64,000 nt of DNA from Robiginitalea sp. (lineage in GTDB: Bacteria; Bacteroidota; Bacteroidia; Flavobacteriales; Flavobacteriaceae), in contig JAHECA010000017.1 in NCBI GenBank assembly GCA_024642005.1, positions 1-64,000 of the forward strand, written 5' to 3'. Every line of letters begins with the position of its first letter. Position 1 is the first letter of the stretch. The position numbers and the translations under genes were made by a program. The notes under the pieces were generated by a model, which saw only the letters and a program-made list of their open reading frames with translations, had not been told where the DNA came from and ran no database searches. Positions 38,999-60,494 of the stretch are shown piece after piece.

Positions 38999-41467
38999 AT
39001 GGCAAAGAACCTGGTTATAGTGGAGTCGCCTGCCAAGGCAAAGACCATTGAGAAATTCCTGGGCAAAGATTTTAAGGTGACATCCAGCTTCGGCCACATT
39101 GCCGACCTGCCTTCCAAAGAGCTCGGCGTCGAGGTCGACAAAGACTTTGCTCCCAAGTATGTGGTGGAGAAAGACAAAAAGGCCCTGGTCAAAAAGCTGA
39201 AGGAACTGGCCGCCCAGGCCGAGACCATCTGGCTGGCCAGCGATGAAGACCGGGAGGGGGAAGCCATATCGTGGCACCTGGCCGAGACCCTGAAGCTCGA
39301 CAAGGAGAAAACCCGGCGCATCGTCTTCAATTCCATCACCAAATCGGCCATTCAACGGGCTATCGAAAACCCGCGTGGCATCAACTACGACCTGGTGAAT
39401 GCGCAGCAGGCCCGCCGCATCCTCGACCGCCTGGTCGGGTACGAACTCTCGCCCGTGCTGTGGAAAAAGATCAAACCCGGTTTGTCGGCCGGGCGTGTTC
39501 AGTCGGTCTCGGTGCGCCTGATCGTGGAGCGCGAACGGGCCATCGAAGCCTTTACAGCCGAGAGCAGCTTCAAGGTGGCGGCCGAATTCCGCACCTCCCA
39601 TGGGGCTGTCTTCGCCGCCAGGCTGCAGGAGAGCTTTCCGAGCCTGAAAGAAGCACGGGCCTTCCTGGAGCAGGTAGAGCAGGCCGCCTTTGCCGTCGAC
39701 AGCCTCGACAAGAAGCCCGCCAAAAAATCGCCGGCCCCGCCCTTTACGACCTCCACCCTGCAGCAGGAGGCTTCCCGGAAGCTCTACTTCTCGGTGTCCC
39801 GCACCATGCAGGTGGCCCAGCGCCTTTACGAGGCCGGGCTAATCACCTATATGCGTACCGACAGCGTGAACCTGTCGGGCGAGGCCATCCAGGCCATCAA
39901 ACAGACCATCGTTTCGAACTACGGGGAGTCGTACAGCAAGGTGCGGCAATTCCAGTCGAAGACCAAGGGGGCACAGGAAGCTCACGAGGCCATCCGCCCC
40001 ACCGATATGACCCTCCAGAAGCCGAACCTCGACCGCGACCAGGCCCGCCTGTACGAGCTCATTCGCCTGCGCACCCTGGCCTCCCAGATGAGCGACGCCG
40101 AATTGGAGCGCACCCAGGTGCACATCCGTAACGACAAGCAACAGACCCTTTTCACCGCCGAAGGGGAGGTGATCAAATTCGAAGGGTTTTTAAAGGTATA
40201 CCTCGAAGGAAAAGACGAGGAAGACCTCGAAGAGCAGGAGGGCATGCTCCCTGCGATGCAGGAAGGGGAACCCCTGCAGGCCAATTACATTTCGGCCACC
40301 CAGCGCTTCACCCGCCCGCCCTACCGCTACACTGAGGCCTCCCTGGTGAAGAAACTCGAAGAACTCGGCATTGGCCGTCCCTCTACCTACGCCCCCACCA
40401 TTTCGACCATTCAGAACCGGGGCTACGTGGAGAAAGGCAGCGTGGAGGGCACCGAAAGGGCCTATACCCAACTGGTGCTCGAAAAAGGCAAGATAACGGA
40501 GAGCTCGCTCACCGAAACCGTGGGCTCCGACAAGGGCAAACTGGTGCCCACCGATATCGGCATGGTGGTGAACGACTTTCTGGTGAGCCATTTCTCGAAC
40601 ATCCTCGACTACCATTTCACCGCCAAGGTGGAAAAGGACTTTGACGACATTGCCTCTGGAGACGAAGACTGGCAGCAGGTCTTGCGCACTTTTTACAAAG
40701 ACTTCCACCCGAATGTGCTGGAAGTCGAAGAAACAGCCGACCGGGCCAGCGGGGAACGGGTGCTGGGCACCGACCCCAAAACGGGCAGGCAGATAGCCGC
40801 ACGCCTGGGCCGTTTCGGGCCCATGGTGCAGATTGGCACGGCCGAGGAAGAAGAAAAACCGCTGTTCGCCAGCCTGCTGCCTGAGCAGTCTATCGCTACC
40901 ATTACCTTTGAGGAGGCCCTTGACCTCTTTAGGCTGCCCCGCAAGCTGGGCACCTACCAGGGTGAGGAAGTGGAGGTGAACGTGGGCCGCTTCGGGCCCT
41001 ATGTGCGCTTTGGCAAATCCTTCGTGTCGCTTGAGGCCGGAGAAGACCTATTTGAAGTGGACCTGGAGCGGGCCGCCGAACTGATACGCGCCAAACAACA
41101 GGCCGAGGCCCCTATCGCCACCTACGAAGGCATGCCGGTTACCAAAGGCAAGGGACGGTTCGGTCCCTTCATCAAATGGGACGGCATGTTTGTGAACGTA
41201 CCCAAGAAATACGACTTCGACAACCTGAGCCAGGCCGATATTAACGAGCTGATCGAAGACAAGAAGAAAAAGGAAGCCGAAAAGGTTGTCAGACAATGGC
41301 CCGAGGAAGGCATCCGTATCGAGAAGGGCCGCTGGGGCAGGCACACCGTGATAAAAGGCCGAACCAAGGTAGACCTTTCCAAAGACGTAGACCCGGGCCA
41401 GCTGAGCCTTGAGCAGGCACTCGAGTTGCTGGGCTCCCGCAAAAAAAAAGGTAAAAAAACAAAATAA
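38999..41467 (+). CDS. topA: DNA topoisomerase I
   Basis: MAKNLVIVESPAKAKTIEKFLGKDFKVTSSFGHIADLP; ASDEDREGEAISWHL; LITYMRTDSVNLS. Start set at MAKNLV. Confidence 0.97.
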   Translation: MAKNLVIVESPAKAKTIEKFLGKDFKVTSSFGHIADLPSKELGVEVDKDFAPKYVVEKDKKALVKKLKELAAQAETIWLASDEDREGEAISWHLAETLKLDKEKTRRIVFNSITKSAIQRAIENPRGINYDLVNAQQARRILDRLVGYELSPVLWKKIKPGLSAGRVQSVSVRLIVERERAIEAFTAESSFKVAAEFRTSHGAVFAARLQESFPSLKEARAFLEQVEQAAFAVDSLDKKPAKKSPAPPFTTSTLQQEASRKLYFSVSRTMQVAQRLYEAGLITYMRTDSVNLSGEAIQAIKQTIVSNYGESYSKVRQFQSKTKGAQEAHEAIRPTDMTLQKPNLDRDQARLYELIRLRTLASQMSDAELERTQVHIRNDKQQTLFTAEGEVIKFEGFLKVYLEGKDEEDLEEQEGMLPAMQEGEPLQANYISATQRFTRPPYRYTEASLVKKLEELGIGRPSTYAPTISTIQNRGYVEKGSVEGTERAYTQLVLEKGKITESSLTETVGSDKGKLVPTDIGMVVNDFLVSHFSNILDYHFTAKVEKDFDDIASGDEDWQQVLRTFYKDFHPNVLEVEETADRASGERVLGTDPKTGRQIAARLGRFGPMVQIGTAEEEEKPLFASLLPEQSIATITFEEALDLFRLPRKLGTYQGEEVEVNVGRFGPYVRFGKSFVSLEAGEDLFEVDLERAAELIRAKQQAEAPIATYEGMPVTKGKGRFGPFIKWDGMFVNVPKKYDFDNLSQADINELIEDKKKKEAEKVVRQWPEEGIRIEKGRWGRHTVIKGRTKVDLSKDVDPGQLSLEQALELLGSRKKKGKKTK

Positions 41468-41479
41468 GGCGTCGCCAAT

Positions 41480-42637
41480 ATGGCATTCGACTTTTTGCTC
41501 CCCGTATCGCAACGCGTTCTGGCCCACTGCGAACTGTTGCCAGCCCAGGCACTGGGCCGCATTGTTTACAAGCACACCGAGCAGGAGGGCCTGCCTGTGC
41601 TGGCCGGGGCCACCTATGCCATACTAGGGGTTTATGAGTCGCGCAACGCCTTTATTAAAAAGACCAGCCGCCTGGATCTCGACGAGATTCGCTTACAGCT
41701 CTACCGCCTTATGGAGGGCAACTGGAACGACACCATTGTTGACCTGGGCGACATTGACGAGGGCGAAGCCGTCAAAGACACCTATTTCGTGGTGCGCGAA
41801 ATCCTGGCCGAGTTGCTGGAAGAGAAAATCATCCCCATCGTTATCGGGGCCACCCAGGATATAACCTACCCCATGTACCGTTCCTTCGACGGCATAGCCG
41901 ACATGGTGAACCTGGTTTCCATAGACAGCCGCTTCGATTTCGGGGCCGAGGAAGAGCTCATTTCTTCCCACTCCTACATGAGCCGCATCATTACCGAAAA
42001 GCCGAACAACCTTTTCAACTTTTCAAACATCGGCTACCAGAGCTACTTCAATGCCCAGGAAGAGGTAGACCTCATGGAGCGCCTCTTCTTTGACGCCTAC
42101 CGGCTCGGGGAGATAGCCGCCGACGTTGCACTGGCCGAGCCCGTGCTGCGCAACGCGCACCTGGTGAGCCTCGACGCCCGTGCCATCCGCGCCAGCGAGA
42201 TGGGGCAGCCCGACAGCTTTTCACCCAACGGGTTCACCGGCCGGGAGATCTGTGCCATTACCCGCTATGCCGGCATGGGCGACAACATTTCGATCTTCGG
42301 TATTTTTGAGATCGAGAACAACATGCAATCGTTCCAGCTCGTCGCCCAGATGATCTGGTATTTCATGGAAGGCCATAATTTCCGCATCAAGGAACGGCCT
42401 TCCCAGTCAGACCCTGACTTTATCCGATACATCGTGCCCTGCGAGTCGGAACAACTTCACTTCTACAAAAGCGCCCTCACCAGCCGTTGGTGGGTGGAGG
42501 TTCCCAACCTCCTCGGGGCGCATACTAAATCACAAGTACCTGCGTTATTACCATGCACCGAACAGGACTATCTGGAAGCCTGCGACCAGAATATCCCCGA
42601 ACGGTGGTTCAAGGCCTATAAGAAGGGCTTTAATTAA
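41480..42637 (+). CDS. Arginase/formimidoylglutamase-fold protein with degenerate metal-binding motifs (probable pseudoenzyme)
   Basis: Ureohydrolase-like layout but GATQDIT, SIDSRFDFG and SLDARAIRASE in place of the canonical GGxH, DAHxD and SxDxDxxD motifs. Confidence 0.78.
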   Translation: MAFDFLLPVSQRVLAHCELLPAQALGRIVYKHTEQEGLPVLAGATYAILGVYESRNAFIKKTSRLDLDEIRLQLYRLMEGNWNDTIVDLGDIDEGEAVKDTYFVVREILAELLEEKIIPIVIGATQDITYPMYRSFDGIADMVNLVSIDSRFDFGAEEELISSHSYMSRIITEKPNNLFNFSNIGYQSYFNAQEEVDLMERLFFDAYRLGEIAADVALAEPVLRNAHLVSLDARAIRASEMGQPDSFSPNGFTGREICAITRYAGMGDNISIFGIFEIENNMQSFQLVAQMIWYFMEGHNFRIKERPSQSDPDFIRYIVPCESEQLHFYKSALTSRWWVEVPNLLGAHTKSQVPALLPCTEQDYLEACDQNIPERWFKAYKKGFN

Positions 42638-42751
42638 ACCCATTTATTTACGCGAGAATAGACCGGTACGTACAATAAAATTTTCAAATTACAGTTTTAG
42701 TGAATAATCATTAGATCGTACCTACCGACTTAACCGAAATTAACCTAACGT

Positions 42752-44107
42752 ATGAAGAAGCTATTGTTATCATCTATAGCGTGTGTTTTTTTGCTTAGCA
42801 GCTGCGGTTCCAAATCCAAAGGGGAGCTCGTGGGTGTTCAGGGTAAAAAATGGTACCCCGAAAAACCCTACGGCATGGAACTGATCCCCCGGGGGTCTTT
42901 CATCATGGGTAAGAGCGAAGAAGACATGGCAAACGTTATGAATGCCCCTACCAAAACTGTCACCGTTCGTTCCTTCTATATGGACGACACCGAAATAACC
43001 AACAGCGAGTACCGTCAATTCGTAGAGTGGGTTAAGGATTCGGTGGTTCGCACCAGGCTGGCTATTTTGGCCGACGAGCTGGGCATGGGCCCTGAAGACG
43101 AAGGGATCGGGATGTACGCCTTCAAGGATGCCGACACGGCCAACCTTTCTGTGTACGACAAATACATGCTCGACAACTACACCGGGCTGGGAGACGACTG
43201 GTACGAGGGCCGCGCCCTGAACAAAGACGAAGACCTGTCGTGGGATACTTCTGAATACCCCGACTCCTATTACGCTGAGGTGATGGACTCCATGTACATC
43301 CCCGAAGAAGAATCGTACAACGGCCAGCGCACCATAGACGTTACCAAATTAAAATACAAGTATACCTGGATGGATATCGAAGCCGCAGCCCGCGCCAAGG
43401 ACGGCCGCCGGAAAGATTTCATCCGCAAGGAGGAGACTTCGATCTACCCCGACACCACCGTCTGGATCCGCGATTTCGAGTACTCCTACAACGAACCCAT
43501 GCACAACGACTACTTCTGGCACGACGCCTATAGCGACTATCCGGTAGTGGGCGTGTCGTGGAACCAGGCCAAGGCGTTCTGCAACTGGCGCACCAAATTC
43601 AAGAATGACGACCAGCGCGATCGCGGCAAGCAGTTTGTGAACCAGTTCCGCCTGCCAACCGAAGCCGAGTGGGAATACGCTGCCCGCGGTGGCATCGAAG
43701 GAGGGACCTATCCCTGGGGTGGCCCGTACGTGATTAGCGACACCGGCTGCTTCATGGCCAACTTCAAACCGCAGCGCGGCGACTACGCGGCCGACTCGGC
43801 CCTGTATACGGTCGAAGCCAAGTCGTACGAACCGAACGATTACAACCTGTACAACATGGCCGGGAACGTATCGGAGTGGACCAACTCCAGCTACTACCCC
43901 GGGTCGTATGAGTACGCCTCCACCATGAACCCGAACGCCGACAGCAAAGACAACACCCGCAAGGTAATACGCGGCGGTTCCTGGAAAGACGTGGCCTACT
44001 TCCTGCAGGTGAGTACCCGCGACTTCGAATACCAGGATTCGGCTCGGAGCTATATCGGCTTCCGCACCGTTCAGGACTATATGGGCGAGGAAGATTCAAC
44101 CCAGTAA
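42752..44107 (+). CDS. gldK: Gliding motility / T9SS lipoprotein GldK (FGE fold)
   Basis: Lipobox LSSCGSKSK; YGMELIPRGSFIMGKSEEDM; RLPTEAEWEYAARGG; NMAGNVSEWTNSSY; KVIRGGSWKD. Confidence 0.96.
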   Translation: MKKLLLSSIACVFLLSSCGSKSKGELVGVQGKKWYPEKPYGMELIPRGSFIMGKSEEDMANVMNAPTKTVTVRSFYMDDTEITNSEYRQFVEWVKDSVVRTRLAILADELGMGPEDEGIGMYAFKDADTANLSVYDKYMLDNYTGLGDDWYEGRALNKDEDLSWDTSEYPDSYYAEVMDSMYIPEEESYNGQRTIDVTKLKYKYTWMDIEAAARAKDGRRKDFIRKEETSIYPDTTVWIRDFEYSYNEPMHNDYFWHDAYSDYPVVGVSWNQAKAFCNWRTKFKNDDQRDRGKQFVNQFRLPTEAEWEYAARGGIEGGTYPWGGPYVISDTGCFMANFKPQRGDYAADSALYTVEAKSYEPNDYNLYNMAGNVSEWTNSSYYPGSYEYASTMNPNADSKDNTRKVIRGGSWKDVAYFLQVSTRDFEYQDSARSYIGFRTVQDYMGEEDSTQ

Positions 44108-44183: not shown

Positions 44184-44834
44184 ATGGCACAGTCTAAATC
44201 AACTAAAAAGCTCTTTAACATGGCCTACGGCCTGGGCGCTTCGGTGGTTATCATCGGGGCACTGTTCAAGATCCTCCACTGGGAGTTCGGACCCCTGACA
44301 GGTGGTCTGCTACTTGCGATCGGTCTTATTACCGAAGCCCTTATTTTCGCAATCAGCGCCTTTGAACCGGTAGACGACGAATACGATTGGTCTCTGGTGT
44401 ATCCCGAACTGGTCGGTGGTGGCGCCAACGATCGCAAGAAACAGGCTGCCGAAGCCAAAGAGGCTGAAGGCCTGCTGAGCAGGAAACTGGACGAACTCCT
44501 CAAAGAAGCCAACATCGACGCTTCCCTGTTCTCCAGCCTGGGTGAGAGCATCCGCAACTTCGAAGGAGCCGCCAAAGGCATTGCTCCTACCGCCGATGCC
44601 ATCGAGCACACCAAGAAATATTCTGAAGAGCTGTCGCAAGCCGCTTCCCAGATGGAATCGCTCAACAGCCTGTACAAAGTGCAACTGGAAAGCGCCAGCC
44701 GCCAGGCTTCCATCAACGAAGAAGTGGTACAAAATGCCGGAGCCCTCAAAGATCAAATGGAATCTCTGGCCAGCAACCTGTCTTCCCTGAACGGCGTTTA
44801 CGGAGGCATGCTGTCCGCGATGAGCAGAAACTAA
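44184..44834 (+). CDS. gldL: T9SS inner-membrane motor protein GldL
   Basis: KKLFNMAYGLGASVVIIGALFKILHWEFGPLTGGLLLAIGLITEALIFAISAFEP. Confidence 0.96.
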   Translation: MAQSKSTKKLFNMAYGLGASVVIIGALFKILHWEFGPLTGGLLLAIGLITEALIFAISAFEPVDDEYDWSLVYPELVGGGANDRKKQAAEAKEAEGLLSRKLDELLKEANIDASLFSSLGESIRNFEGAAKGIAPTADAIEHTKKYSEELSQAASQMESLNSLYKVQLESASRQASINEEVVQNAGALKDQMESLASNLSSLNGVYGGMLSAMSRN

Positions 44835-44896: not shown

Positions 44897-46465
44897 ATGG
44901 CATCAGGAAAACAAACACCCCGGCAGAAGATGATCAACCTCATGTATTTGATCTTCATCGCTATGCTGGCGTTAAATATGAGCAAGGAAGTACTCGCAGC
45001 GTTCGGTCTTATGAACGAAAAGATGGAGTCTTCCAATGCTAAGGCTACCGAGAACAACCTCGCGTTCCTGGAAAGCCTGGAAACCAAAGCTTCCGAAGAT
45101 GCTGCCAAATACGCCGAGCTCTACCAGGATGCTCAGCAGATCAAGCAGCTTTCACAGGAGTATAACGATTACCTGGAAAACCTGAAGAACTCCATGGTCG
45201 AGAAGATCGAGGACCCTGCAGACTACGAGGTAATGGACAAATCGGACTACCTGGACGAGAAATTCTTCCAGGGCGACAACCTGGCCGAAGAAGGCAAGCG
45301 GTTTATGGATTACCTGCAGAACTACCGCGCGAAAGTGCTCGGCATTCTGGGCGACAAATTCCCGGAAGTATCTGAGGCCGTAAAAACCCGCTTCACCACC
45401 GGTGATGAAAATGGCATGGTAGCGCGTCGCGACGGAGTCAAAGTAGAGTGGATCAACTACCACTACGAAGGCTTCCCGCTTATTGCCTCCCTGACCAAGC
45501 TCACCTCATTGCAGTCAGACATCAAGGCCACCGAAGAGGGCGCCCTGAAAGCCATGCTGCAAGGCGAGCTCACCAGCCAGGTTTCCCTGACCAACTTCTC
45601 CACCCTGCTGGAGTCTGAGAAATCGGCCTTCTATTCGGGTGAGAAATTTGCCGGGAGCATCGTGCTGGGCAAGACCGACAAATCGGCCAAGCCCGTGAAA
45701 GCCGAGCTGACCCTCGACGGCCGCAAGCTGTCTGAAGGTTCCGATTACAAGCTGAAAGAAGGTGGCGTTGAGCTGCTGATTGGTGCCGGCAACCCCGGCG
45801 ACCACGCAATTGCCGGAACCCTGTTTTACATGCAGGATGGGGTAGAGACCCCGGTTCCGGTAAAGAACAGCTTCTCTACCATTTCGAAGCCCAATGCGGC
45901 CGTGATCTCTGCCGACAAGATGAACGTGGTGTACCGCGGGGTAGCCAACCCGATGACCATTTCCATCCCCGGCATCCCGGACAACAAGGTGAGTGCTTCT
46001 GCATCCGGTCTGGAAAAGCGTAGCGGTAGCAACTATGTGATGAACCCCGGTACAGGCCGTTCCGTGACCATCACCGCTTCCGGTACCCTGCCCGACGGAC
46101 AGAACATCACAACCCGTTCGGAGTTCCGAATCAAAGACATCCCGCGTCCGTCCGGATCTATCCGGGGCGAAAGCGGCAGCGTGTCGATGCCCAAGAACAA
46201 CCTGGAGATTTCTACCGTGGGAGCCCTGTTGGAAGATTTCGACTTCGACCTGAACCTGGAAGTCAGTGGCTTCAAGTTCAAGGTGCCGGGTCAGCCGACC
46301 GTACAGGTTAACGGAAACAAACTCGATGCCCGGGCCAAGTCTGCCCTGAAGCGTGCCGGCCGTGGTGATGCCGTCCAGATCTTCGACATCGAGGCGTATA
46401 TCACCAACAACAAAAGCTATAAGTTGAAGAAGGTGTCTCCCGTGGTTGTGGAGCTCACCAACTAG
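44897..46465 (+). CDS. gldM: T9SS motor protein GldM
   Basis: MASGKQTPRQKMINLMYLIFIAMLALNMSKEVLAAFGLMNEKME. Confidence 0.96.
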   Translation: MASGKQTPRQKMINLMYLIFIAMLALNMSKEVLAAFGLMNEKMESSNAKATENNLAFLESLETKASEDAAKYAELYQDAQQIKQLSQEYNDYLENLKNSMVEKIEDPADYEVMDKSDYLDEKFFQGDNLAEEGKRFMDYLQNYRAKVLGILGDKFPEVSEAVKTRFTTGDENGMVARRDGVKVEWINYHYEGFPLIASLTKLTSLQSDIKATEEGALKAMLQGELTSQVSLTNFSTLLESEKSAFYSGEKFAGSIVLGKTDKSAKPVKAELTLDGRKLSEGSDYKLKEGGVELLIGAGNPGDHAIAGTLFYMQDGVETPVPVKNSFSTISKPNAAVISADKMNVVYRGVANPMTISIPGIPDNKVSASASGLEKRSGSNYVMNPGTGRSVTITASGTLPDGQNITTRSEFRIKDIPRPSGSIRGESGSVSMPKNNLEISTVGALLEDFDFDLNLEVSGFKFKVPGQPTVQVNGNKLDARAKSALKRAGRGDAVQIFDIEAYITNNKSYKLKKVSPVVVELTN

Positions 46466-46548: not shown

Positions 46549-47451
46549 ATGAATTGGAAACGAGTTTTAATAATCGGAGCGCTGGCTGCACTGCCCGCGG
46601 CCGCTTGGTCTCAGGCCAACATCCTGAATGCCAAGAAGCCCGAAGATATCGGCAAACGCACCGAGGCCCAGATAACCGCCGACAACGACAAGCCCCTCGA
46701 ATACGGGTATGTTGACGACCGCGACATCTTATGGTCTAAGACCATCTGGGAGGTGATCGATCTGGACGAGCGGGTGAACTTCCCGATGTACTATCCGATC
46801 GACACCATCGACATCGGCTCCGACCGTCGCTCCCTGTACGATGTGCTGCTCAAGAACATCAAGAGCGGCAAGCTCACCGATGTATATGTAGACTCCTACT
46901 TTACCGAGAAGCGTAAGTTCAGCGACCTGGAAGCCACCCTGAAAAAGGTAGATACCACCGACCTGGGGTACGAGCAGATGAATGCCGGAGAAGAGATCTC
47001 CCCGGAATACATCAACCGGCGCGACCTTACAGCCGCCGATATCGAAGAATACCGGGTTAAAGGAATCTGGTACTTCGACAAGCGGCAGGGCGAGCTCAAG
47101 TACCGCCTGCTCGGCATCGCCCCTGTGGCGCCCGACGTGAACTTCATCGACGATGAGTCCATGTCCCCCGAAGATGCCCTTGTGGAGCTCTTCTGGGTTT
47201 GGTACCCGAGCGCCCGTCAGATGCTGCACGATTCCAAGGTGTTCAACCAGCGGAATTCGTCACAGCCGCTTTCCTTCGACATGCTGCTGAACGCCCGTCG
47301 TTTCAATGCAGTGATCTACAAGGAGGAGAACGTGCACGGCGACCGGGAAATCAAGGACTACATTGCCGAGAACGCACTTTTCCAGCTTTTGGAATCGGAG
47401 CGCATCAAAGAACAAATTCGCAACCGCGAACAAGATATGTGGGCGTATTAA
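46549..47451 (+). CDS. gldN: T9SS/gliding motility protein GldN
   Basis: DDRDILWSKTIWEVIDLDERVNFPMYYPID; DVNFIDDESMSPEDALVELFWVWYPSARQMLH. Confidence 0.95.
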   Translation: MNWKRVLIIGALAALPAAAWSQANILNAKKPEDIGKRTEAQITADNDKPLEYGYVDDRDILWSKTIWEVIDLDERVNFPMYYPIDTIDIGSDRRSLYDVLLKNIKSGKLTDVYVDSYFTEKRKFSDLEATLKKVDTTDLGYEQMNAGEEISPEYINRRDLTAADIEEYRVKGIWYFDKRQGELKYRLLGIAPVAPDVNFIDDESMSPEDALVELFWVWYPSARQMLHDSKVFNQRNSSQPLSFDMLLNARRFNAVIYKEENVHGDREIKDYIAENALFQLLESERIKEQIRNREQDMWAY

Positions 47452-47557: not shown

Positions 47558-48637
47558 ATGCTCGATTATCTGATCGTCGGTTCGGGGCTGGCCGGGATGG
47601 CCCTTACCGAAACCCTGCGCCGGGAAGGCTGCAGCCTGCGCGTCTATGACGACGCTTCCCAACAGGCCTCGCGCGTGGCCGGGGGCCTCTATAACCCGGT
47701 AGTGCTCAAACGGTTTACCCTGGCCTGGGAAGGCAGCCGGCTGATGGCCTTTTCCCTGCCTTTCTACCAACAACTGGAGCGGGAGTGGGCCATTTCAATC
47801 GACAAGAAAAAACCCGTCTTCCGCCGCCTGGCCTCGGCCGAAGAGCAAAACGCCTGGTTTGAGGCTGCCGACAGGCCAGGCCTGTCTGAATTTCTGGAGC
47901 CCGGTATAGTCAGAAACGAGAATCCGGCCCTCGAAGCCCCTTATGGCTTCGGGCGTGTCAACAACACGGGCCGGATAGCCACCAGTACCCTTTTGAACGC
48001 ATTTTCAGAGCAGCTGCGCAAACAGGGCCTGCTCGATACGGCTGCTTTTGACCATGCCTCCCTGGCTTTTGAAGACGGCCATGTGCGCTACGGCGACCTC
48101 ACGGCCAGGCGGGTGGTGTTCTGCGAAGGGTTCGGGATGATGGGCAACCCTTTTTTCAACTATTTGCCCCTTCAGGGGACCAAGGGCGAGTTGCTGACCA
48201 TCAGGGCGCCGGAGCTCCGGGAAGACCGCATCGTGAAGTCGGGGGCCTTCTTTATCCCGCTGGGGCACGACCGCTACCGGGTAGGAGCCACTTACGCCTG
48301 GAACGACTACACCCAGGCCCCCACCCGGGAGGCCCGGGAAGCCTTGCTGGGCCAGTTGCGCAAGTTTGTCCGCTGCGATTTCGAGGTGGAAGGACAGGTG
48401 GCGGGCATCCGCCCCACCGTGCCCGACCGCCGACCGCTGGTGGGCCGCCACCCCGAACACCCCGAGCTTTTTGTGCTCAACGGGCTGGGCTCCAGGGGAG
48501 TGCTTATCGCCCCTTATGCAGCCTATTGCCTGGCCCGCTTTATGCAAGGGGGCCACAGCCTGCCGCCTGAGATGGATGTAACCCGCTACCGTTCCCATTT
48601 CGGCAAAGAAGGCCGGGGCCTGGCCGGAAATCGATAA
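47558..48637 (+). CDS. FAD-dependent oxidoreductase (DAO family)
   Basis: MLDYLIVGSGLAGMALTETLRREG Rossmann motif; GATYAWNDYTQAPT; VEGQVAGIRPTVPDRRPLVG. Confidence 0.9.
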   Translation: MLDYLIVGSGLAGMALTETLRREGCSLRVYDDASQQASRVAGGLYNPVVLKRFTLAWEGSRLMAFSLPFYQQLEREWAISIDKKKPVFRRLASAEEQNAWFEAADRPGLSEFLEPGIVRNENPALEAPYGFGRVNNTGRIATSTLLNAFSEQLRKQGLLDTAAFDHASLAFEDGHVRYGDLTARRVVFCEGFGMMGNPFFNYLPLQGTKGELLTIRAPELREDRIVKSGAFFIPLGHDRYRVGATYAWNDYTQAPTREAREALLGQLRKFVRCDFEVEGQVAGIRPTVPDRRPLVGRHPEHPELFVLNGLGSRGVLIAPYAAYCLARFMQGGHSLPPEMDVTRYRSHFGKEGRGLAGNR

Positions 48638-59441: not shown

Positions 59442-60494
59442 ATGCGCACCTCGAACTTTTTGCTGGGCATTAGCCTTGCCCTGGCCCTGTCTGCCTGCAG
59501 GGAAAGCCCTGCACCCACCAAGCCTGCCCCGGTTGTTTCCACCCCGCCCCGGGAAGTGCCCGAGGGCATGGTTTATATTCCGGCAGGCCAGTTTCTGATG
59601 GGGGGGAAGTCCGGGCAGGCCGAACCCGATGAGCTGCCCCGCCACCCGGTAAGCGTCTCGGCCTTTTTGATGGACCAGACCGAGGTCACCAACCAGCAGT
59701 TTGGGGTTTTTGTGGCCGAAACCGGGTATGTGACCACAGCAGAAAAACCGATAATCTGGGAAGAAATCAAGGCGCAACTGCCGCCGGGGACCCCCAAGCC
59801 GCCTGATTCTGTGCTGCAACCGGGCTCCCTGGTGTTCCGTCCCACCCGCGGCCCGGTAGACCTGAGAGACCTGACCCAGTGGTGGGCCTGGACCATCGGC
59901 GCCGACTGGAAACACCCACTGGGCCCGGGCAGCGGCCTGGAGGGCCTTATGGATCATCCGGTGATACATATTTCCCACGACGATGCCCTGGCCTATGCCA
60001 GCTGGGCCGGGAAAAGGCTCCCGACAGAGTCGGAATGGGAATGGGCTTCCATGGGGGGGCGCGTAGACCCCAAATACCCCTGGGGCGATGCCCCAATAGA
60101 CCAGGCCGCCGACCTGGCCAATTTCTGGCAGGGGATTTTCCCTTTCCGCAATGACCAGTCCGACGGCTACTACCTCACGGCGCCGGTAAAGACGTACCCT
60201 CCTAACGGCTACGGTTTGTTCGACATGGCCGGGAATGTCTGGGAATGGTGTGCCGATAAATACCGCCACGATGCCTACGGACTGGAGCAGTCTCCCTCAG
60301 AGGCGGTCAATCCGCAGGGGCCATTGACTTCTTTTGACCCCATGGAACCCCTTGCCGAAAAATTCGTGATCAGGGGCGGATCATACCTCTGCAGCGAGGA
60401 TTACTGCAGTGGGTACCGGGTGGCCCGGCGCATGCGTTCGACGCCCGATTCTGCCTTTGGGCATACGGGGTTTCGATGCGTGAAAGACCTTTGA
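59442..60494 (+). CDS. Formylglycine-generating enzyme (SUMF1 family) lipoprotein
   Basis: Lipobox LSACRESPAP; MVYIPAGQFLMGG; RLPTESEWEWASMGG; DMAGNVWEWCADKY; VIRGGSYLCSEDYCSGYRVARRMRSTPDSAFGHTGFRCV. Confidence 0.93.
   Translation: MRTSNFLLGISLALALSACRESPAPTKPAPVVSTPPREVPEGMVYIPAGQFLMGGKSGQAEPDELPRHPVSVSAFLMDQTEVTNQQFGVFVAETGYVTTAEKPIIWEEIKAQLPPGTPKPPDSVLQPGSLVFRPTRGPVDLRDLTQWWAWTIGADWKHPLGPGSGLEGLMDHPVIHISHDDALAYASWAGKRLPTESEWEWASMGGRVDPKYPWGDAPIDQAADLANFWQGIFPFRNDQSDGYYLTAPVKTYPPNGYGLFDMAGNVWEWCADKYRHDAYGLEQSPSEAVNPQGPLTSFDPMEPLAEKFVIRGGSYLCSEDYCSGYRVARRMRSTPDSAFGHTGFRCVKDL

Follow-up and report, generated by a model that had tools for sequence, protein, structure and literature searches.

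Immediately upstream of the core T9SS operon of Robiginitalea sp. lies a gene whose product has the layout of a ureohydrolase, which raises the question of whether it encodes an enzyme, a part of the secretion and gliding apparatus, or a protein with another role altogether. The window analyzed here, a stretch of 64,000 nt from contig JAHECA010000017.1, carries this gene at positions 41480..42637 on the + strand. Its product, hereafter the pseudo-ureohydrolase, belongs to a family found nearly throughout the class Bacteroidia, occupies the locus of the best-known secretion and motility machine of that class and could easily be mistaken in annotation for an enzyme of histidine or arginine degradation; correcting the label prevents false pathway calls. 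Neither a description of the gene nor a mutant phenotype or physical interaction tying it to the T9SS or gliding was found in the open-licence papers covered. Families and genera (f, g), genomes (G) and loci (L) are cited below by sample codes.

A ureohydrolase fold of probable HutG descent

The open reading frame starts with the ATG at 41480 and its stop codon ends at 42637, yielding a full-length, HutG-derived protein of 385 aa. The protein matches the Pfam Arginase profile (PF00491) with 35.2 bits, above the cut-off of 22, and scores 36.2 bits with the NCBIfam hutG equivalog (TIGR01227), far below the 229 required. Its AF2 model (68 aligned sequences; pTM 0.83, mean pLDDT 77) retrieves metformin hydrolase (both subunits), B. 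subtilis HutG and agmatinases as top Foldseek matches (best E 2e-13), and both the Arginase profile and the predicted fold place it in the arginase/agmatinase/HutG superfamily. Profile matches were also obtained to B. subtilis HutG 3m1r and archaeal agmatinase 3pzl, and all 33 of the 33 family members scanned matched the hutG model, with a best E of 4.4e-28 that is better than that for agmatinase. The pseudo-ureohydrolase is most likely descended from a formimidoylglutamase-type (HutG) ancestor. Additionally, it carries a family-specific C-terminal domain of about 85 residues (residues 301-385; 42380..42634, + strand) with invariant F328, W337, C359 and A367. This domain gave no Pfam and no PDB match, and a Foldseek search with the isolated domain returned nothing below E 0.69; a recognizable domain at the C-terminus was rejected on these searches.

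Patterned loss of the metal centre

Metal A of arginase is bound by H101, D124, D128 and D232, and metal B by D124, H126, D232 and D234 (rat arginase numbering). Two canonical ureohydrolases encoded in the same genome served as alignment references, namely the agmatinase-like L001 (motifs GGDHS, DAHADL and SLDMDALD) and L002, a HutG within a hut operon (GGGHD, DAHFDL and TIDLDGF). The sequence-only reading had described a ureohydrolase layout with three altered metal signatures, and in this alignment the motifs that it quoted do fall on the ligand positions: three of the six Mn ligands are replaced in the window protein (His101 by Q126, His126 by R151 and Asp234 by R234), and D149, D153, D232 and E277 are retained. 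That reading had counted the three losses correctly, but the count hides their pattern, and it missed the additional absence of the catalytic His141 equivalent, a position at which only 1 of 108 diverse orthologues has His.

Across the same 108 orthologues, on which all ligand counts are based, the two metal sites behave differently. At site A, the codon for Q126 (41855..41857, + strand) corresponds to Gln in 78, His in 21 and Asn in 8 orthologues, and Asp is kept in 102/108 at D149 (Asp124 equivalent; 41924..41926, +), in 97/108 at D153 (Asp128 equivalent; 41936..41938, +) and in 102/108 at D232 (Asp232 equivalent; 42173..42175, +). At site B, the alignment would put R151 (41930..41932, +) in the place of His126, a position held by Lys or Arg in 64/108 orthologues and by His in just 4/108, and Asp is lost in 102/108 at the Asp234 position (R234; 42179..42181, +), the 6 orthologues that do have Asp there being without most other ligands. 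None of the 108 has the complete six-ligand set (GGxH, DxHxD, SxDxD), and the recurrence of the same pattern in such diverse orthologues is more than chance. Column entropies follow the same division, with D149, D153 and D232 at the 8th-13th percentile, position 151 at the 81st and position 234 at the 73rd. The ligand loss is thus patterned: constraint has been relaxed at site B and at the catalytic His but persists at the site-A aspartates. Such a loss offers a clear test case for the conversion of a metalloenzyme into a binding protein. Since half of the metal-binding centre and the catalytic His are gone, an enzyme annotation is unsafe, which bears out the earlier suspicion that the label of arginase or formimidoylglutamase would be wrong; by sequence, the protein is a pseudo-ureohydrolase. 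Separately, orthologues L143-L147 (same order, family f2) have a branch of extreme length on the tree (about 4 changes per column) and almost none of the ligands, their residues reading N,S,I,S,N,D,N; they lie near topA and away from gldK.

The resemblance to HutG (TIGR01227; PDB 3m1r, 4mxr) consists of the fold, the best profile match and the motif spacing. Unlike HutG, however, the pseudo-ureohydrolase has lost the catalytic His, two ligands of metal B and, in most members, the His of metal A; it also has the extra C-terminal domain and sits outside the hut operon, in a genome that has a separate canonical HutG (L002). A Trypanosoma brucei arginase-like protein is likewise an arginase relative without the binuclear Mn cluster, but that protein is eukaryotic and arginase-like, whereas the window protein is bacterial, HutG-like and encoded in a conserved bacterial locus. 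Noncanonical arginases of this Mn-cluster-free kind are mentioned in PMC11271267.

An old family under purifying selection

A scan of named genomes yielded 80 close orthologues, 70-86% identical, in Robiginitalea, Eudoraea, Arenibacter, Maribacter, Zobellia and other genera. The family profile matches 305 of 325 sampled Bacteroidia genomes, and in the phylum sample outside Bacteroidia it gives weak matches only, which do not reach the C-terminal domain of the family. Between the window gene and its nearest relatives, dN is about 0.09-0.11 against a dS of about 1 that is close to saturation, and four close pairs have a dN/dS of about 0.01-0.05. The family is orthologous, old, strongly conserved and under purifying selection. 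Pseudogene decay is ruled out by the intact frames of the orthologues and the low dN/dS, and a recent loss within the genus by the class-wide spread of the ligand changes. A conserved fold, a lost catalytic centre and purifying selection together make the protein a ureohydrolase pseudoenzyme. Taken with the low dN/dS, the low entropy at D149, D153 and D232 indicates selection for the fold and for the acidic cluster of site A, and none for binuclear chemistry. Divergent or partial homologues occur at L149 and L150 (family f5) and L215 (family f94), in open frames of about 277-316 aa whose match to the family is confined to its second half, a possible path to gene loss.

Gene order between topA and the T9SS operon

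Upstream of the pseudo-ureohydrolase gene lies topA (DNA topoisomerase I; 38999..41467, + strand), a conserved neighbour and probable operon partner that ends 12 nt before it. Downstream, a 114-nt intergenic leader (42638..42751, +) separates it from gldK (42752..44107; TIGR03525, 609 bits), gldL (44184..44834; TIGR03513), gldM (44897..46465; TIGR03517) and gldN (46549..47451; TIGR03523), all on the + strand; the gene is therefore indeed placed just upstream of the T9SS operon and co-directional with it, as first read. Directly after gldN, at 47558-48637, the window encodes a FAD-dependent oxidoreductase (DAO family) that is conserved at this place in Flavobacteriaceae; an ABC-F type protein comes next. 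Further on, at 59442-60494, lies a lipoprotein-like protein with a sulfatase-modifying-factor type domain, a distant GldK relative (107 bits to TIGR03525).

In Flavobacteriaceae the order is topA–gene–gldK: of 80 loci, a few of them truncated by contig edges, 79 have topA directly upstream and 78 have gldK directly downstream. In about 35 other families the usual order is [miaB and a sigma-54 regulator, on the opposite strand]–topA–gene–porP–gldK–gldL–gldM–gldN. The porP gene between the gene and gldK is missing in Flavobacteriaceae; the T9SS order with porP is seen in L164-L201, L115 and L196. On the gene tree, which was built quickly and leaves many forks unresolved, the topA–gene–porP–gldKLMN linkage spans most deep branches, and 5 changes are needed for the topA link and 7 for the T9SS link. 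This order is probably ancestral in the class, is very widespread and provides a concrete target for a knock-out. A survey for co-localization with gld genes, proposed along with the sequence-only reading, thus finds the adjacency to the T9SS operon conserved across many families. Where this block has come apart (f3, f4, f8), the conserved neighbours vary by family, e.g., a thioredoxin-like protein, a PBP4-type peptidase or nqrF, and thus no alternative partner emerged.

Spacing sets the two flanks apart. The gap to topA is below 60 nt in 58/79 Flavobacteriaceae loci and in 29/41 others (three of whose topA gaps, -1173, -76 and -52, are unreliable), and several genes overlap topA, by 1-4 nt. 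The gap to the T9SS operon, starting with either porP or gldK, ranges over 70-449 nt and is never under 70. The short gap on one side and the wider one on the other suggest two transcription units, one with topA and the gene and a second with the T9SS genes, and topA and the pseudo-ureohydrolase gene are probably co-transcribed. A sigma-70-type promoter in the 114-nt gap before gldK was rejected as a candidate, with a scan score not clearly above shuffles; Bacteroidota promoters have a consensus other than the sigma-70 type.

A partner of the T9SS or of TopA?

The sequence-only reading had offered a binding or regulatory partner of the T9SS and gliding apparatus, and a dedicated role of this kind, in which a cytoplasmic protein would serve the GldLM motor, or the porP-gldKLMN operon, as regulator or assembly factor, is the strongest of the alternatives, though we regard it as unlikely. 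Besides the conserved order in most of the sampled families, it draws on the distribution of the gene, which is present in 302 of 316 genomes with SprA and in 3 of 9 without it (Fisher p about 2e-6, uncorrected for phylogeny), being absent from the other 6 of these 9. Linkage with gld and por genes, as expected of a core T9SS component, is indeed conserved, with a minimum of 7 changes along the tree. However, the gene is not present wherever the T9SS is: it is missing from 14/316 SprA-positive genomes, 9 of them at least 90% complete. Such genomes, most of them with GldM, occur in f10, f11 (g235), f66, f94, f98 and f107. The PorM of f107 and f11 is nearest to P. gingivalis PorM. No copy of the gene was found beside porP/porKLMN at the loci fetched from gene-less T9SS genomes of this kind. 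Conversely, G518 (99% complete) has a full-length, intact gene, but SprA, GldL, GldM and GldB were not found in it; this is one genome, and recent loss of the T9SS could explain it. Its congener G002 retains gldKLMN, SprA not being found, and at its locus L213, in a complete genome, gldLM and gldKN are oppositely oriented. A further SprA-negative score, that of G348, probably reflects an assembly gap, since this genome has at least 150 T9SS cargo tails. Moreover, the gene lies distant from gldK in f2, f3, f4, f8, f9 and f64, and the T9SS operon always begins at least 70 nt away, whereas topA is often abutted or overlapped. Lying nearer to topA, missing from several T9SS lineages (among them those nearest P. 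gingivalis) and retained in G518, the gene is best read as not being a core T9SS part, and the dedicated role is not supported as proposed.

The same spacing, with its overlaps of 1-4 nt, raises the alternative that the protein is a partner or regulator of TopA itself. In line with this idea, f2, f64, L169 and L191 keep the gene with topA while gldK is elsewhere, and the topA link requires fewer changes on the tree than the T9SS link. Yet the gene is apart from topA in f3, f4, f6, f8, f9, f85 and f91, and operon neighbours need not interact, which leaves a TopA partner improbable.

A probable binding role for a remodelled pocket

The account best matching these data is that of a non-hydrolytic, cytoplasmic pseudo-ureohydrolase of HutG-type descent, present in most of Bacteroidia and probably co-transcribed with topA, which acts by binding; taken as a whole, it is held with moderate confidence. 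The fold and the acidic cluster of site A persist, but on this account the protein would be unable to form the canonical binuclear Mn centre or to use a catalytic His, so that guanidino or formimino substrates would not be hydrolyzed in the known way. The old pocket would then consist of three aspartates and a Gln or His, often with Lys or Arg in the metal-B place, and would most likely accommodate one metal ion, a salt bridge or a small ligand resembling a guanidino compound or an amino acid. The family-specific C-terminal domain may serve as the contact surface for a partner, and a binding or scaffold role rather than catalysis is most likely, presumably exerted in the cytoplasm. The probabilities given to the alternatives partly overlap with this one, as a partner of the T9SS or of TopA could also be a non-hydrolytic binder. 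A bolder version, in which the altered arginase pocket is the sensor for a metabolite of guanidino or amino-acid type and the protein adjusts the T9SS/gliding motor or its operon, with only lineages of the Porphyromonas type and a few more able to do without it, appears doubtful.

Catalysis might instead persist in another form, with a single metal at site A supporting a reaction other than that of ureohydrolases. The site-A aspartates rank among the most conserved residues, and E277 is retained in 66/108 orthologues. A complete site-A set (H, D, D, D) is found in most f4 and f8 members and in one of two f9 members, and as all four site-A ligands are present where position 126 is His, a single-metal enzyme is possible in those lineages. 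Over all 108 orthologues, however, position 126 is mostly Gln, E277 gives way to Asn or Gly in 40 orthologues and the His126, Asp234 and His141 equivalents are lost, so an active enzyme has a low probability for the family.

MetCb, an inactive metformin hydrolase subunit, pairs with active MetCa (PMC11271267), and MetCb/MfmB (PDB 8x3g, 8ryi; PMC11271267) resembles the window protein as a ureohydrolase-family pseudoenzyme that has lost metal binding and is among its best fold matches. MetCb requires its active paired paralogue, whereas some genomes have the pseudo-ureohydrolase with no other family member found, and its conservation within a single class is ancient. That the latter is likewise the inactive subunit of a heteromer with an active ureohydrolase, as the MetCb precedent and the Foldseek matches to both metformin hydrolase subunits might suggest, is very improbable, because an obligate or general pairing is weakened by at least four genomes (G099, G214, G518 and G554) in which it is the sole PF00491 protein found, and no adjoining ureohydrolase paralogue occurs in the window or was flagged among the recurrent neighbours.
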